DNA of 45,944 nt from Candidatus Sulfotelmatobacter sp. Lineage in GTDB: Bacteria; Acidobacteriota; Terriglobia; Terriglobales; Acidobacteriaceae. The notes under the pieces are model-generated. The model ran no database searches, was not told where the DNA came from, and saw nothing but the letters and a program-made list of their open reading frames with translations. Location of the stretch: assembly GCA_030041475.1 (NCBI GenBank), contig JASHNU010000034.1:1-45944 (forward strand), written 5' to 3'. Within the stretch, counting starts at the first letter, position 1; every line of letters starts with the position of its first letter. The translations under genes and the position numbers were made by a program. This document shows positions 3,764 through 22,546 of this stretch, piece by piece.

Positions 3764-4426
3764 ATGAAACGAATTCTTCTGTCTTGGAGCAGCGGGAAAG
3801 ACAGCGCATGGAGCCTGCATGTTCTGCGGGAGCGCGCGGAATATGAGGTGGTCGGACTGCTAACGACCTTCAATCGAGAGGCCGATCGCGTGGCCATGCA
3901 TGCGGTGCGAAGAGAATTGGTCGAACGTCAGGCTGGCGCCACGGGACTCCCGCTTTGGCAGGTTCCCTTGCCCTGGCCCTGCTCCAATGAGCAGTATGAA
4001 TCGTTGATGGGGCAAACGTGCGCGAAAGCAGTTGCGGAAGGCTTGTATGGAATCGCATTTGGCGATTTGTTTCTTGCCGATGTGCGCGCTTACCGGGAAA
4101 AGCGACTGAAAGATACGGGCTTGATTCCCGTCTTTCCGGTCTGGGGCTTGCCCACTGCGGCGCTGGCGCGAGAGATGATCGCATCCGGGGTGCGAGCAAA
4201 ATTGACTTGCGTGGATACTGCGAAGTTGGACTGCTCGTTCGCTGGCCGTGAATTCGATGAAGCGCTGCTCGCCGCCCTGCCGGAAGACGCCGATCCGTGC
4301 GGCGAACAAGGTGAGTTTCATAGCTTTGTGTACGCAGGCCCGATGCTCAATGCTGTATTGCCCGTTTCTCTCGGCGCGACTGTGGTTCGCGATAGATTTG
4401 TGTTCGCGGACCTGACTTGGGGTTGA
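3764..4426 (+). CDS. Dph6-like adenine nucleotide alpha-hydrolase (ATP pyrophosphatase)
   Basis: A 220-residue cytoplasmic protein of the DUF71/diphthine-ammonia ligase family. The N-terminus has the P-loop-like SSGKDS motif (residues 9-14) that binds ATP pyrophosphate, followed by SAWSLHVLRE. The C-terminal half has CGEQGEFHSFVYAGPM, which matches the GENGEFHT signature of the family. Archaeal and eukaryotic members amidate diphthine on EF2. Bacteria have no diphthamide, so the bacterial substrate is unknown and the ligase name should not be carried over. The start at ATG 3764 gives the usual family N-terminus; the longer in-frame ORF from 3626 only overlaps the preceding gene. The gap to the Asp-box gene is 37 bases, so the two are probably cotranscribed. 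Confidence 0.8.
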   Translation: MKRILLSWSSGKDSAWSLHVLRERAEYEVVGLLTTFNREADRVAMHAVRRELVERQAGATGLPLWQVPLPWPCSNEQYESLMGQTCAKAVAEGLYGIAFGDLFLADVRAYREKRLKDTGLIPVFPVWGLPTAALAREMIASGVRAKLTCVDTAKLDCSFAGREFDEALLAALPEDADPCGEQGEFHSFVYAGPMLNAVLPVSLGATVVRDRFVFADLTWG

Positions 4427-4654
4427 GAAGGCTTTACGCTCTCAAAACACAAATTTCCGCGGAGCGATCCGCATCATCCACAGCGATCTGCTTCTCACGG
4501 ATTTTTTCTCACACCTGCTTGATTTTTTCACGCGCGGCTGTGGTACACTCGCCGCCGACTGTGCTTGCGTCTGATTCGCCCGGACAAGACGGGCGTGGCG
4601 CTGGCCGTGGGGAAAATCCTTTTCGTGTGGTCCTAAGTTCTGGAGGGCTGGGGA

Positions 4655-5461
4655 ATGGGCCTCGCGTTGCTGGTTTTGATCTGGCTGATCACCTTGGTCA
4701 GCACGTATTTCTTTGTCGCCAAAACCTGGTGGCTTCCGGTGGGTGCCGCGCAGGCGGCGCACTGGATCGACGGGCAGTTCGCTCTCACTTACATCGTGAT
4801 GGGGATAGTCTTCCTAGCAGCCCAGCTGGGATTAGGCTACATCGTTTGGAGATACCGCGAGACGCCGTCGTCGCCGCCCGTGAAGTATTCTCATGGCAAC
4901 ACCACGCTCGAGGTCGTATGGACGCTGCTCACCGCTGTACTTTTCATCGGGCTCAACCTGATGGGCAGCACGGTCTGGGCCAGCCAGCGCTTCGCGCCGG
5001 CTGAGGCCGGCGCCGTGCAGGTGGAAGTCACCGGCATGCAGTTCGCATGGTATTTCCGCTATCCCGGCGCGGACGGCACCTATGCCAAGACGACCCCGAA
5101 GCTGATGGATCCCTCGGCGGGCGGCGAAGCCGCGGTGGGGCTTGACCCCAACGATCCTTCCGCCAAGGACGATGTCGTGACCGGCACAATGTATCTGCCG
5201 GTGAATCGCGAAGTCGACTTGAGCCTGCGCGCGGTGGACGTGATTCACAGCTTCTTTGTGCCGTCGCTGCGCTTCAAGCAGGACGCGGTTCCGGGACTGA
5301 ACATTCACTTGCATTTCAAGCCGACCGCGATCGGCGAGTACGAGATCGCCTGCGCCGAACTCTGCGGCCTGGGCCACTACAAGATGCACGGCATGGTGCA
5401 CGTCGTCAGCCAGGAAGATTTTGACAAGTGGCTGGCGGCACGGGAGGCGGAGAAACAGTAA
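4655..5461 (+). CDS. coxB: Cytochrome c oxidase subunit II
   Basis: This 268-residue subunit II of an aa3-type oxidase accepts electrons from cytochrome c at the CuA centre. The CuA ligands are visible: H198 in VIHSFFVP, then C233, E235, C237, H241 and M244 in CAELCGLGHYKM. Hydrophobic segments lie at about 3-22, 45-66 and 86-108. The last two are the usual hairpin; the first is either an uncleaved extra helix or a signal sequence. There is no C-terminal cytochrome c domain, so this is not a caa3 fusion. The start ATG 4655 has GGAGG about 10 bases upstream. It leads the oxidase operon and its stop is one base before the coxA ATG. The 228 bases upstream hold a weak promoter-like TTGATT/TACACT pair near 4519-4549. 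Confidence 0.95.
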   Translation: MGLALLVLIWLITLVSTYFFVAKTWWLPVGAAQAAHWIDGQFALTYIVMGIVFLAAQLGLGYIVWRYRETPSSPPVKYSHGNTTLEVVWTLLTAVLFIGLNLMGSTVWASQRFAPAEAGAVQVEVTGMQFAWYFRYPGADGTYAKTTPKLMDPSAGGEAAVGLDPNDPSAKDDVVTGTMYLPVNREVDLSLRAVDVIHSFFVPSLRFKQDAVPGLNIHLHFKPTAIGEYEIACAELCGLGHYKMHGMVHVVSQEDFDKWLAAREAEKQ

Positions 5462-17583: not shown

Positions 17584-17606
17584 TTGAAATTGAAATTCAT
17601 TTTCAA
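17584..17606 (+). promoter_or_regulatory. Fur-box-like palindrome in front of the iron operon
   Basis: Two 11-base arms, TTGAAATTGAA and TTCATTTTCAA, flank a central A; 10 of 11 positions are complementary. The inner 19 bases match the classical Fur consensus GATAATGATAATCATTATC at 14 positions. It ends 18 bases before the ATG of the FTR1 gene, where a bound repressor would block transcription. A DtxR-type protein could use such an AT-rich palindrome too. Confidence 0.6.
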
Positions 17607-17624: not shown

Positions 17625-18875
17625 ATGTTACAGGCATTCATCATTACCCTCCGCGAAGGCGTCGAGGCCGCCCTTATCGTCGGCATCACCCTCGCCTATC
17701 TAACCAAGATCGGACGCGCCGAACTCCGCAAGACTGTCTACGCCGCTCTGGGGGCCGCGTTTCTGGGCAGCATCGGCGTGGCCATCGTGATCTCCCGCAC
17801 TCATCTCAACGAAGACGTTTTCGAAGGCTGGGTCATGCTGGTGGCCGCGTTCTTCGTGGTCACTATGGTCGTCTTCATGATGAATACCGGCCGCAAGATG
17901 AAAGGCGAGATCGAAGGCAAAGTCGGCCTGCTCGCTGGCAACGACGCCTGGTTCGGCCTGTTCATTTTCATCTTTCTGATGGTGCTCCGCGAGGGCGCCG
18001 AGACGGTTCTGATTCTCTCTGCGGTTACGCTCAACTCCTCGGAACTGATGAGCTTCCTAGGCACTCTGCTGGGGGTTCTCGCCGCTATCGCCTTTGGCGT
18101 GATGTTCGTCAAAGGCAGCGTGCGCATCAACCTGCAGAAATTTTTCCGGGTCACCACAGCAATCATGTTCCTGGTGGCCGGGCAACTACTGATCTCAGGC
18201 CTGCACGAACTTTCCGAGAGCGGAGTGATCGCTTCGTCGAAGCGCGAAATGGCGATCATCGGCCCGATCGTCTCGAATGACTGGTTTTTCTTCGTGACGA
18301 TTTTTGCCCTGGCCGCGCTCATGATCCTGTTTGACGCCAAGCGGCGCCAGCCCGTACCTGATTCGCCCTCGCCCGCCGCACGCCGCAAGGCCGCTTGGAC
18401 GGCGCGCCGCGAGCGCCTCTGGATGGCCTCGGTCTGCACCTTCTCCTTCGTGTTTATCGTGATGGTCACGGCCGAGTTCATTTATTCTAAGAGCGTGAGC
18501 GCGCTCTCGCCCGCAACCCAGGTCGTCTTCACCAACGGCGCGGTAACCATTCCACTCGTCCAGGTCTCTGACGGAGACCTGCACCGCTTCCAGGCGAAGG
18601 AGAACGGCACAGAGGTGCGATTCTGGCTCTATCAAAAGCCGGATGGCAAGATTGCCACCGTGTTCGATGCCTGCGAAATCTGCGGTGCGGTCGGCTTCTA
18701 CAAGAGCGGCAACGGCGTGGTGTGCAAGAACTGCGCGGCGCCGATCAATCCGCAGTCCGTGGGCATGGCCGGAGGCTGCAATCCCATTCCGCTGAAAGCC
18801 ACTCAAACCACCGACGCGATCATCATCCAGGAGGCCGACATCGCGGCCGGCAGCCGCCTGTTCGGGGCACAGTAG
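17625..18875 (+). CDS. FTR1 iron permease fused to a DUF2318 (Fe-S type) domain
   Basis: A 416-residue inner membrane protein with two joined parts. Residues 1-240 are an FTR1/EfeU-type high-affinity iron permease with about seven helices and both signature REGxE motifs (REGVE 10-14, REGAE 122-126) that carry iron across. After a Pro/Arg-rich linker (241-262) and one more helix (267-287), residues 300-416 face outward and match DUF2318. The match rests on H320 (GDLHRF), CEIC (350-353), CKNC (367-370) and the GGCNP loop with C385. In the Campylobacter p19/ftr1 and E. coli fet loci these two parts are separate proteins. The cysteines and histidine could bind metal or pass electrons to iron before import. 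First gene of a four-gene operon; AGGG lies 8 bases before the ATG. Confidence 0.92.
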   Translation: MLQAFIITLREGVEAALIVGITLAYLTKIGRAELRKTVYAALGAAFLGSIGVAIVISRTHLNEDVFEGWVMLVAAFFVVTMVVFMMNTGRKMKGEIEGKVGLLAGNDAWFGLFIFIFLMVLREGAETVLILSAVTLNSSELMSFLGTLLGVLAAIAFGVMFVKGSVRINLQKFFRVTTAIMFLVAGQLLISGLHELSESGVIASSKREMAIIGPIVSNDWFFFVTIFALAALMILFDAKRRQPVPDSPSPAARRKAAWTARRERLWMASVCTFSFVFIVMVTAEFIYSKSVSALSPATQVVFTNGAVTIPLVQVSDGDLHRFQAKENGTEVRFWLYQKPDGKIATVFDACEICGAVGFYKSGNGVVCKNCAAPINPQSVGMAGGCNPIPLKATQTTDAIIIQEADIAAGSRLFGAQ

Positions 18876-18877
18876 CC

Positions 18878-20143
18878 GTGTTCGTCCGGCTCGTTTACGA
18901 ATCGTTCCGGCGGCAGAAACGCCGAAAGGTGCTGGCCGGGGCAGCGATCACGCTGGGCGTCACCGTCGCCACGGCGATGATTGCCGTCGCCACCGACATC
19001 GGCGATAAAATCAACCGCGAACTCCGTACCATCGGCGCCAACCTGATCGTTACCCCTCAGGAAGATTCGCTCGACGTAGAGATCGGCGGCGTCAATCTGA
19101 AGCCCCCGACCGATGGCGCTTTCCTCAACGAAGCAGACCTGCCCAAGATTAAAGACATTTTCTGGCGCAACAACATTACGGCCTTCGCGCCCATGCTTCC
19201 AGTCAACGTTGCGATCCAAAACGATGGCAAGCAGCAGGACGTGACTGTGCTGGGCACGTACTTTGCAAAAGACATCCAGCTCGGCAAGGAAGATTTCGTG
19301 ACCGGAGTCCGTACGACGCATCCGTGGTGGAAAGTCGAAGGCGAATGGCCGAGCGACAACTTGCGTGATGTCTTGGTCGGCGAAAGGCTCGCGGCACGCC
19401 TGGGCGTGAAAGTCGGCGGCACTATCGATCTTTCCGGGCGCGATCTGCATGTCAGTGGAATTCTTTCCACCGGCGGTACTGAAGACGATCAGATCGTCGC
19501 ACCGATGGCACTGGCGCAGGAAATTCTTGGCCGGCCGGGCGTGGTGCGGCGCATTTACGTCAGCGCCTTGACCAAGCCCGAAGACGCCTTTGGCCGGCGC
19601 GATCCGAAAAGCATGTCAGGCGCAGTGTATGAGCGCTGGTACTGCACACCGTATCCGGCAGCGATTGCGCTGCAGTTGACCGAAGCCATTCCGCATTCGC
19701 ACGCCGAGCAGATTCGCCAGGTCGCGCAAAATGAAGGTGCGATGCTGACGCGTATCGAGGGCCTGATTTTTCTGATCACGCTGGCTGCACTGTTTGCCTC
19801 GGCGCTGGCCGTTTCGGCGGCGATGGCCACAACGATTTTCGAGCGGCGCGCGGAAGTCGGATTAATGAAAGCCCTTGGCGCTGGCAAGCTCGCGGTAGCT
19901 GCGGTTTTCTTTGCTGAAGCTTTTTTGCTGGCTCTTTTCGGCGGACTCATCGGCTTTGCCGCCGGCGCGCTTTTGGCGGATCAAATCGGCCACTCCATTT
20001 TCAATTCGCAGATATCGATCCAGCCGGTGCTGTTGCCGGTGATTCTCGCGATTGCCGTGATTGTGACGTTTGCCGGGAGTGCGGCGGCGATCCGGCGCGC
20101 GATAGGGCTTGATCCCGTTTTTGCTTTGCGAGGTGAACTGTGA
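18878..20143 (+). CDS. FtsX/MacB-type ABC permease, first of the iron operon
   Basis: A 421-residue permease with the MacB-like plan. One N-terminal helix (about 18-40) leads to a large periplasmic domain (about 42-280), then three C-terminal helices (about 290-320, 335-365, 378-400). The FERRAEVGLMKALGAGK motif between the last helices is the cytoplasmic coupling element that contacts the ATPase. The start is GTG 18878, two bases after the ftr1 stop; longer frames upstream lie in ftr1. It matches the paired permeases of the p19/ftr1 (Campylobacter) and fet (E. coli) iron loci. By analogy with MacB it may act as a mechanotransmitter on periplasmic partners rather than as a channel, which is inference. 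Confidence 0.9.
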   Translation: MFVRLVYESFRRQKRRKVLAGAAITLGVTVATAMIAVATDIGDKINRELRTIGANLIVTPQEDSLDVEIGGVNLKPPTDGAFLNEADLPKIKDIFWRNNITAFAPMLPVNVAIQNDGKQQDVTVLGTYFAKDIQLGKEDFVTGVRTTHPWWKVEGEWPSDNLRDVLVGERLAARLGVKVGGTIDLSGRDLHVSGILSTGGTEDDQIVAPMALAQEILGRPGVVRRIYVSALTKPEDAFGRRDPKSMSGAVYERWYCTPYPAAIALQLTEAIPHSHAEQIRQVAQNEGAMLTRIEGLIFLITLAALFASALAVSAAMATTIFERRAEVGLMKALGAGKLAVAAVFFAEAFLLALFGGLIGFAAGALLADQIGHSIFNSQISIQPVLLPVILAIAVIVTFAGSAAAIRRAIGLDPVFALRGEL

Positions 20144-21297
20144 GCGCGCCCGTCTCCAATGCCGCGCGGGATGTAGCTGCCGGCCGGGCCGACGCGCCGC
20201 ACACTTCCATGCTCGTGCGCATGTTGCTGCGCGCGGCGGTGCTGCGCCGCGGACGGGCAGTTTCCGCATTGTTTGCCATGGTAGTGGCGGCCGCGGTTGC
20301 GACCGCGATGCTGAATCTTTACGTCGACGTCCAGGCCAAGCTGCGCCGCGAATTCCGCAACTACGGCGCGAACATCATTCTGGTCGGCAAAGACGGCGCT
20401 TCCCTTCCCGCCAGTGCGCTGGTGCAGGTCGATTCCGTCCTGGCGGGACGCGGGATCGCAGCGCCTTTTGGCATGATCGTGGCGCGCACCGGCGACGGCC
20501 AGCCGATCGTGGTCGCGGGCGCGGATTTCAATCGCGTGCGGCAACTGAATCGCTGGTGGAAGGTGAGCAGTTGGCCCGCTGGGCCGCAGCAAGCCCTGAT
20601 TGGCGTGCGTGCCGCACCCATCGTCACGCCAAAGGACCAAGCGTTCGATTTGACCTTCCAGGGACGCGTGTTGCACGTCACTCCGGCCGGTACGGTGCAG
20701 ACCGGAGCGGCAGAAGACAGCCGCATTTTTATTTCGACGTCTGATTTCGAGGCGTGGACCGGCCTCCAGGCATCGACGATTGAAGTGGCTGCCAGCGGCT
20801 CGCCTGAAGAAATTGCCGTGATCATGAATCAACTCACTCGGACTTTTCCGGCGGTTGATGTGCGACCAGTGCGCCAGATCATGGAAGGCGAAGCGCGCGT
20901 GCTGGGCAAGACGCGAGCTACTTTACTGGCCGCAACAGCGCTCATCATTTTAACTTCCGCACTTTGCGTGCTTTCCACGCTGATGGGGTGGGTTTTCGAC
21001 CGGCGACGCGACTTCGCCATCATGAAAGCGCTGGGCGCTTCGGGAAGGCTGCTCAATGGATTCTTCGCCGCCGAGGCGGCGGCTTTGGGCGCAATCGGTG
21101 CCCTGGTCGGATTCGCGGTTGGTATCGGCATCGCTGCGTGGATCGGACGCATCAACTTCCACGCTCCCGTGGTGCCGCGATGGAGCGTGCTGCCGGTGGT
21201 CTTAGCTGGTAGCATGATAGTCACGCTTTTGTCCGCAGTCCTTCCCATTTCGTTGCTGCGGCGCGTGCAGCCGGCCGTGATTCTCAGGGGAGAGTGA
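20140..21297 (+). CDS. FtsX/MacB-type ABC permease, second of the iron operon
   Basis: A 385-residue permease similar in plan to the preceding one but clearly diverged. The first 20 residues are soluble, a helix follows at about 40-60, a periplasmic domain spans about 62-260, and three helices sit near 267-290, 310-335 and 345-370. FDRRRDFAIMKALGASGRLL is its coupling motif. It starts with GTG 20140, whose GTGA overlaps the previous stop by 4 bases, so translation is coupled. The two permeases probably form a heterodimer served by the ATPase encoded one base downstream. No catalytic residues are expected. Confidence 0.9.
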   Translation: MSAPVSNAARDVAAGRADAPHTSMLVRMLLRAAVLRRGRAVSALFAMVVAAAVATAMLNLYVDVQAKLRREFRNYGANIILVGKDGASLPASALVQVDSVLAGRGIAAPFGMIVARTGDGQPIVVAGADFNRVRQLNRWWKVSSWPAGPQQALIGVRAAPIVTPKDQAFDLTFQGRVLHVTPAGTVQTGAAEDSRIFISTSDFEAWTGLQASTIEVAASGSPEEIAVIMNQLTRTFPAVDVRPVRQIMEGEARVLGKTRATLLAATALIILTSALCVLSTLMGWVFDRRRDFAIMKALGASGRLLNGFFAAEAAALGAIGALVGFAVGIGIAAWIGRINFHAPVVPRWSVLPVVLAGSMIVTLLSAVLPISLLRRVQPAVILRGE

Positions 21298-21298
21298 A

Positions 21299-22546
21299 AT
21301 GATTCAGATCAACGACGTCACCAAGCTCTACCCCGCCAAGGAAGCGGGAAACGGATCGGGGAAAGATAACGGCGCGATTCATGCGCTCGATCACATTTCT
21401 TTGCATGTGACGCCCGGCGAATGGTTGTCAATCATGGGGCCGTCGGGGTCGGGCAAATCGACGCTGGTCAATCTGATCGGCTGCCTCGATCGGCCGACTT
21501 CCGGCGAGATTTGGCTCGACGGGCAAAATGTAGCCGGAATTTCTTCCTCCGAATTGAACCGTGTGCGCGCCGAAAAAATCGGATTCGTCTTCCAGCAATT
21601 CCACCTCATTCCCTTCCTCACTGCAGTCGAGAACATCATGCTGGCCCAGTATTTTCACAGCATGACCGACGAGAAGGAAGCGATCGATGCCCTAGCGCGC
21701 GTCGGCTTGGGTGACCGCGCGCATCATCTGCCCTCGCAGCTTTCCGGGGGCGAGCAGCAGCGTGTATGCATTGCTCGCGCTCTGATCAACGATCCGCGCA
21801 TCATCCTAGCCGACGAACCCACGGGCAATCTCGACGCGCAGAATGAAGAAATCGTGCTGCGGCTGCTGCGCGAATTTCACCAGCAGGGCCGCACCATCGT
21901 GATGGTTACGCACGACCCGGTGGTGGCGCGGCTGGCCGACCGGCGCATCGAACTGCACCACGGCAAAATCGCGGCGCAGGAAGTGTTCTCGATGGCCGAC
22001 GAGGAGCAACTCGACGAGGTGCTGGAAGAACTCTGGGTGCTCGCCGAGCATGGCGAGATCGCCGAGGTCGAGCGCATGGAAGTACATGGCGCACTGCCCG
22101 TAAGCCTGGCGATCGAAAAGATGATCGAACTGGAACTGGTGAGATCAGCGCCGCATCCGCCGGAAGCGCATGATCACAAGCCATTCGTGAATCCCTGCCA
22201 CGACGCGCTGAAGCCTGTGTCGTCGTCAGTGGGCGATGGCACGATGATCGTGGAATTGACGCCGCGCGGCCGGGAACGCGCCGGCAGCATCATCCGTCGG
22301 CACCGCCTGGCCGAGCGTTTGTTCACCGACAGCCTGGCGATGGACAGCGAGACCGAAATCGAGCAACAGGCCTGCAAGTTCGAGCACATCCTCTCGCCGG
22401 AAGCCACCGACAAGATCTGTAGCTTTCTCGGCCATCCGCGCACGTGCCCGCACGGCGCGCCCATTCCGCCGGGGCCGTGCTGCGGACGCACGGCAGAAGT
22501 CTCAGGCGTTGCCTCCGACGTGGCAAGAACTCATCCTAAGGCATAG
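21299..22546 (+). CDS. ABC ATPase fused to a DtxR-like iron-dependent repressor module
   Basis: A 415-residue protein with two full modules. Residues 1-228 are a LolD/MacB-type ATPase: Walker [10 protein letters not shown] (47-55), Q-loop FVFQQF (97-101), signature LSGGEQQR (148-155), Walker [13 protein letters not shown] (168-179) and switch H205. Residues 233-390 match DtxR/MntR regulators. There is a winged-helix-like segment (about 237-283), then [20 protein letters not shown] with H335 and E339 (DtxR H79 and E83). [11 protein letters not shown] follows, with C359, E362 and H363 (DtxR C102, E105, H106), and then [14 protein letters not shown]. DtxR H98 is E355 here, and the M10 position is acidic as in MntR. 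So the metal-binding core is preserved. A short tail ends with GPCCGR. ATG is one base after the permease stop, with AGGGGAG before it. It may sense iron to gate transport or bind DNA. Confidence 0.92.

Follow-up and report, generated by a model that had tools for sequence, protein, structure and literature searches.

In Campylobacter jejuni, disrupting any one of fetA, fetB, fetC, and fetD is reported to cause an iron-dependent growth defect (PMC10783030), and the gene names FetA, FetB, FetC, FetD, and FetM used below are taken from that source. A parallel for feedback on uptake is provided by the ATP-binding cassette (ABC) importers MetNI and ModABC, where transinhibition by methionine acts on MetN and by molybdate on ModC (PMC10710835). 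Among metal-dependent repressors, the ligands described for DtxR are Met10, Cys102, Glu105, and His106 (PMC4805248), and architectures that join FeoA to DtxR are also known, with the role of FeoA under debate (PMC8980893). The window analyzed here, the whole 45,944-nucleotide stretch of Candidatus Sulfotelmatobacter sp. DNA (contig JASHNU010000034.1), contains a single uninterrupted open reading frame (ORF) at 21299–22546 on the forward strand that encodes 415 residues. By its sequence, the product is a FetD-type ATPase of an FTR1 iron-uptake operon carrying a DtxR-derived C-terminal tail, and we put at about 60% the probability that this tail is a ferrous-iron sensor gating the ATPase post-translationally.

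The protein matches ABC_tran (PF00005) at residues 30–175 with an expect value (E) of 8.9e-37 and Fe_dep_repr_C (PF02742) at residues 321–390 with 92 bits against a cut-off of 27 (E 2.2e-26), bearing out the original prediction, made from the DNA alone, of an ABC ATPase fused to a DtxR-like part. The nucleotide-binding domain (NBD) has the fold and motifs of a MacB/LolD-type ATPase, with GPSGSGKS at 47–54, LSGGE at 148–152, ILADEP at 169–174, and His205. In a phmmer search of the PDB, the tail matched IdeR (7b1v, E 6e-16), and the five residues that had been proposed as ligands, His335, Glu339, Cys359, Glu362, and His363, fall on the DtxR/IdeR ligand columns of that alignment. His79, Glu83, and His98 are further ligands of DtxR. 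The module had also been called complete, which holds for the metal-binding and dimerization domain only: in the 415 residues Pfam found neither the DNA-binding domain PF01325 (E <= 1) nor a C-terminal SH3/FeoA domain. Of the features of the DtxR/MntR class, PF02742 and the metal ligands are thus present and PF01325 is not, for which reason the fusion is not classed as a DtxR repressor. The gene is the last of an apparent operon (17625–22546) combining FTR1, DUF2318, two FtsX permeases, and an ATPase, and by gene content this operon is a Fet system comprised of FetM-FetA, FetB, FetC, and FetD, which places the protein in the iron-transport setting foreseen for it. No match to FetP (P19, PF10634) was found in the window's genome, which is 99.6% complete; the system is Fet-like without FetP.

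A full-length, single-frame fusion is present in 17 of 24 same-genus genomes at 88–93% identity, which rules out a frameshift or misassembly as its origin. The gene is split over two frames in G021 and partial in G023, and no such match was seen in 5 of the 24, some of which are incomplete. The tail is 97% identical to that of another Candidatus Sulfotelmatobacter locus (L030). The two outcomes named beforehand as fatal to the prediction, a tail with no DtxR match and a frameshift artefact, were both looked for and neither was found. A protein search with residues 229–415 (E <= 0.001) returned 4576 candidate proteins, fused or not, of 228–726 residues, and among the 120 matches listed 118 contain both PF00005 and PF02742 and 2 contain PF02742 only. 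As had been allowed for, the domain pair can be seen in protein databases, where the labels are generic ("putative ABC transport system ATP-binding protein", for example); no paper describing the architecture was found in the open-licence PMC literature. The source record of one fusion (P0093) names Candidatus Aquilonibacter, which lies outside Acidobacteriota, and may reflect transfer or misbinning.

A genome-by-genome survey covered 297 Acidobacteriota genomes. FTR1 is matched in some form in 87 of them, and over most of the length of the FTR1-FtrD protein in 42. Half of the 42 (21 genomes from 8 families) also have a strong tail match no more than 5 kb downstream of the FTR1-FtrD gene and on its strand, and the architecture that was to be sought across genomes does recur. 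In G334, G254, G079, and G051, the stretch read stops before the ATPase tail. FetD of G330 (L210:134–895) ends in a different short tail, ACPNCGMNLFKKHEH, perhaps another metal-binding appendage.

Conservation was assessed in 93 fusions, kept from 179 after selection for ABC motifs, a length above 340 residues, and less than 90% identity, such that domain counts among them do not represent prevalence. Each of the 93 has both PF00005 and PF02742. Cys359, Glu362, and Glu339 are invariant, and His335 and His363 are each present in 92. Within the first helix of the tail (helix 1), Trp246 is found in 93/93, position 243 is Glu in 86 and Gln in 7, and position 240 is Glu in 50, His in 42, and Asp in 1. 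The column of DtxR His98 varies, the six commonest residues being Glu (48), His (19), Asp (10), Ala (8), Gln (5), and Arg (2).

The DNA-binding half of the tail is, by contrast with ordinary DtxRs, eroded. PF01325 was detected in none of the 93 fusions (E <= 0.01) and in none of 48 standalone relatives with a PF02742-FeoA architecture, whereas 19 of 21 controls, ordinary DtxRs of this phylum, contain it; two relatives tested singly gave E values of 0.0027 and 0.025, matches that fall short of the curated cut-off. Between the Trp of helix 1 and the ligand His, the median spacing is 59 in the fusions (31 without the insert were measured), 59 in the relatives (44 of 48 measured), and 67 in the controls (12 of 21 measured). 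The median net charge of the helix-turn-helix (HTH) stretch is −4 in the 93 fusions versus +1 in 13 of the 21 controls, for segments that were cut differently in the two sets. The mean frequency of the major residue (22 sequences below 80% identity) is 0.79 for the ATPase, 0.76 for the metal domain, 0.68 for helix 1, and 0.49 for the HTH remnant, and the median ratio of nonsynonymous to synonymous substitution rates (dN/dS; 27–32 pairs, with dS near saturation at ~1.4) is 0.038 for the ATPase, 0.036 for the metal domain, and 0.072 for helix 1 plus the remnant. From these values, the metal domain appears to be constrained about as strictly as the ATPase, while the part that would contact DNA drifts more. 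An AlphaFold model of the fusion consists of the NBD, a helix at 233–250, wing strands, and three helices between 322 and 376, with a lone helix (268–277) where an HTH has two; a fold comparison with the whole fusion gave only ABC domains among the matches listed and was uninformative on the tail. The insert at residues 286–315, whose H..H.HK..N.CH motif occurs in 50 of the 93 fusions, has the look of an additional metal site restricted to a single lineage.

The nearest standalone relatives of the tail are the PF02742-FeoA proteins, a set of 48 defined by architecture that carry names such as "metal-dependent transcriptional regulator". A feoB gene was sought in 22 loci, drawn from the better non-fused tail matches with neighboring genes read by a coding heuristic and tblastn, and adjoins in 21 of them. 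In a tree built by a quick method (114 rows, 141 columns), the fusions form one clade within the PF02742-FeoA family, with a Shimodaira–Hasegawa-like approximate likelihood ratio (SH-aLRT) support of 98, and the fusion appears to have arisen once. One FeoB-neighboring protein (L164:5419–5967) is too short to contain HTH helices 2–3 and keeps helix 1, PF02742, and FeoA; as judged from its sequence, it should be a natural version that does not bind DNA.

No FeoB_C domain was found in the window's genome, and in its family, with 31 genomes sampled, 21 have FTR1 only and 10 have FeoB_C only, a mutually exclusive pattern which suggests that one ferrous importer has been displaced by the other. Across the 297 genomes, FeoB_C is present in 1 of the 21 fusion genomes versus 222 of the 276 others (Fisher p 1.7e-12, uncorrected for kinship). 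Because FTR1 and FeoB_C exclude one another in this family and the fusion genomes are mostly without FeoB, FetM-FetBCD seems to stand in for FeoB, with the sensor placed on the importer that remains.

The best explanation of these observations is that an Fe2+ sensor has been transferred from FeoB to the FetBCD motor in genomes whose FetM takes the place of FeoB, producing an import feedback akin to transinhibition. Rising cytosolic Fe2+ (or Mn2+) would bind between helix 1, through Glu240 and Glu243, and the dimerization domain, through His335, Glu339, Cys359, Glu362, and His363. In the AlphaFold model, helix 1 (233–250) starts three residues past the last NBD-side strand (223–229). Once clamped, it would hold both NBDs of a FetD dimer in place relative to the paired sensors and slow NBD closure, and a slowed FetD would in turn shut down FetM-dependent iron uptake. 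What the sequences show is the architecture, its conservation, the gene neighborhood, and the descent; the binding of metal and the gating are predictions. The tail probably throttles iron import in soil Acidobacteriota when the cell is iron-replete. Of the two mechanisms offered in the original prediction, cis gating fits this evidence; the other, autorepression by a moonlighting tail, does not, as set out below.

A number of observations weigh against such a sensor. The substrate of FetBCD is described as unclear even in C. jejuni (PMC10783030), and for this reason the target of the throttle may be whatever activity supports FetM, and not the passage of iron through FetBC. The hybrid D/C/E/H site of PgMntR is reported to bind both Mn(II) and Fe(II) (PMC4805248), and the metal sensed by the tail may accordingly be Fe2+ or Mn2+. 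The model of the fusion, built with 93 sequences, is of moderate confidence, with a mean predicted local distance difference test score (pLDDT) of 81 and values below 50 at residues 382–412, and positions 240 and 243 were assigned as candidate ligands from MntR numbering and alignment ranges. The PF02742-FeoA relatives that keep FeoA still model as winged helices. In one genus (g12), which accounts for 14 of the 42 genomes with the FTR1-FtrD protein, none has a close tail match and all eight loci read have a short, tail-less ATPase, making the sensor dispensable to the operon; this genus is also without FeoB and yet lacks the FetD tail, contrary to a strict rule. The operon has a tail-less ATPase in G037 and G045 as well, and in G030 as far as the contig reaches, while G171 has the fusion plus FeoB. 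Finally, in G239 (L215, ATPase and tail match at 4282–5211), the fused sensor is without the C/E/H ligands. This L215 sensor has a CC pair and may be a decayed or re-tooled copy.

Four other explanations of the tail were considered. It could be an iron acceptor or chaperone, catching Fe2+ from FetM at the inner face and either activating the pump or passing the iron on. Cys374, Cys383, Cys394, and Cys395, together with the His/Cys insert of 50/93 fusions, could hold several metals, and activation by metal is described in other transporters, such as YiiP (PMC10710835); against this, the retained helix 1 and dimerization core look like parts of a switch and less like a simple store, and the sensor is dispensable in g12, leaving this role unlikely. 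Somewhat harder to credit is a thiol/redox or Fe-S switch, in which the four-Cys loop would be the sensor and would tie FetBCD, itself suggested to supply reducing power (PMC10783030, discussion), to the cytosolic redox state. All four cysteines and His385 are found in 93/93 fusions, and the loop has a major-residue frequency of 0.87, the highest of eight segments measured, but the DtxR ligands vary about as little, and ordinary DtxRs mostly have DPHG here in place of CPHG, so the loop may merely be a second metal site.

A moonlighting autorepressor, in which the tail, released or membrane-tethered, would bind the operon's palindrome at high iron, is very improbable. Besides the missing PF01325, the shortened Trp-His spacing, and the acidic HTH stretch, the palindrome holds a Fur-type 7-1-7 box, TGAAATTCATTTTCA, which is also found before fur. 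With at most one mismatch, TGAAATTCATTTTCA is found upstream of 55 of 95 FTR1 genes (shuffles 0), the other 40 being without it; the 95 are the usable upstream regions of 120 loci, some of them from close relatives and a few from a genome entered twice. Upstream of FTR1, the best matches to a DtxR-type operator of the pattern TTAGG..CTAA were no better than those in shuffles. The window's genome has four exact TGAAATTCATTTTCA sites (reversed control 0), one of which lies 58 bp upstream of the fur gene (L223). Another two of the four lie in L221 and L222, and one of these is ~370 bp ahead of an ORF for a Trns_repr_metal (PF02583) repressor. The predicted Fur box of delta-proteobacteria is given as WTGAAAATNATTTTCAW (PMC545781). 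Before FeoB operons the Fur-type box is weaker, with 0/20 at one mismatch or fewer and 4/20 at two (shuffles 0.1). Transcription of the operon appears to be left to Fur. Upstream of FTR1 in L057, L062, L095, L097, L099, L101, and L103, an inverted repeat, TTGCAACTNAGTTGCAA, replaces the TGAAA box (with one mismatch in L097). The g12 loci L205–L209, L217, L218, and L220, with tail-less ATPases, have a distinct conserved upstream element like ATTGACGACCAATTTAGTCC, seen by eye in 7/8, which resembles an Rrf2-type site. That the tail is a structural leftover, stabilizing the NBD dimer without any response to metal, would suit PF02742 as a dimerization domain and the tail-less ATPases of the same operon, but is hardly probable given that the ligands are preserved and that purifying selection acts on them about as strongly as on the ATPase.

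Table 1. Features of the fet operon and of its FetD fusion in the window
Feature	Position	Strand	Remarks
Fur-type 7-1-7 box TGAAATTCATTTTCA, upstream of operon	17591..17605	+	within palindrome 17584-17606
FetM-FetA fusion: FTR1 permease and FtrD-like (DUF2318) Cys domain	17625..18875	+	PF03239 E 1.7e-35; PF10080 E 2.7e-31
FetB, MacB_PCD/FtsX permease	18878..20143	+	likely GTG start at 18878; listed ORF from 18722
FetC, FtsX permease	20140..21297	+	PF02687 E 8.7e-16
FetD fused to predicted sensor, 415 residues	21299..22546	+	
ABC nucleotide-binding domain, residues 1-228	21299..21982	+	
Predicted sensor helix 1, residues 233-250	21995..22048	+	acidic candidate ligands E240, E243; invariant W246
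Eroded HTH/wing remnant, residues 251-285	22049..22153	+	model without a helix 2 of at least 4 residues
Wing insert, residues 286-315	22154..22243	+	H..H.HK..N.CH motif
DtxR metal-binding/dimerization helices, residues 321-376	22259..22426	+	H335, E339, C359, E362, H363, C374
Cys loop, residues 377-395	22427..22483	+	C383, H385, C394, C395, each in 93/93 fusions

Beyond the gated FetD itself, a wider proposition, which we hold tentatively and at slightly less than even odds, is that this DtxR-derived family has largely given up DNA binding to become a portable post-translational Fe2+ throttle, acting on whichever ferrous importer is in use: on FeoB (via FeoA) or, where FetM-FetBCD stands in for it, on FetD. 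Such a throttle would add to the iron control exerted by Fur and canonical DtxR, and might include a redox-sensitive Cys4 site as a second one. Little is known of how bacterial Fe2+ importers are throttled after their synthesis. An iron-sensing fold and an ATPase in one polypeptide, with the same domain beside FeoB, make the roles of FeoA and FetBCD directly testable, and suggest that among the proteins annotated as DtxR regulators there may be some that are not transcription factors.

Compared with the FetMP-FetABCDEF systems of C. jejuni and Escherichia coli, the operon shares FTR1, DUF2318, two FtsX-type permeases, and one ATPase, and differs in that FetM and FetA are fused, no FetP was found, and FetD carries the putative sensor. 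A Fur box is reported upstream of the C. jejuni genes as well (PMC6083913), while the available portions of two C. jejuni papers mention no sensor on the ATPase. The PF02742-FeoA proteins have in common with the fusions the degenerate N terminus, the helix-1 motif, RRHRLAE, AC.FEH, and CPHG.PIP.G.CC, and are set apart by being standalone, retaining the FeoA domain, and neighboring FeoB. With DtxR, IdeR, and MntR, the fusion shares PF02742, the columns of DtxR His79, Glu83, Cys102, Glu105, and His106, and helix 1; it lacks a detectable PF01325, HTH helix 2 (in the model), and SH3/FeoA, has four extra invariant cysteines, and is joined at the N terminus of this part to an ABC ATPase. With MetNI and ModABC, it has in common a C-terminal domain on the ATPase that would bind a ligand, and the feedback by a transported nutrient that is proposed here by analogy. 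The regulatory domain of MetN is ACT-like and that of ModC TOBE-like, whereas the one on FetD is DtxR-derived.
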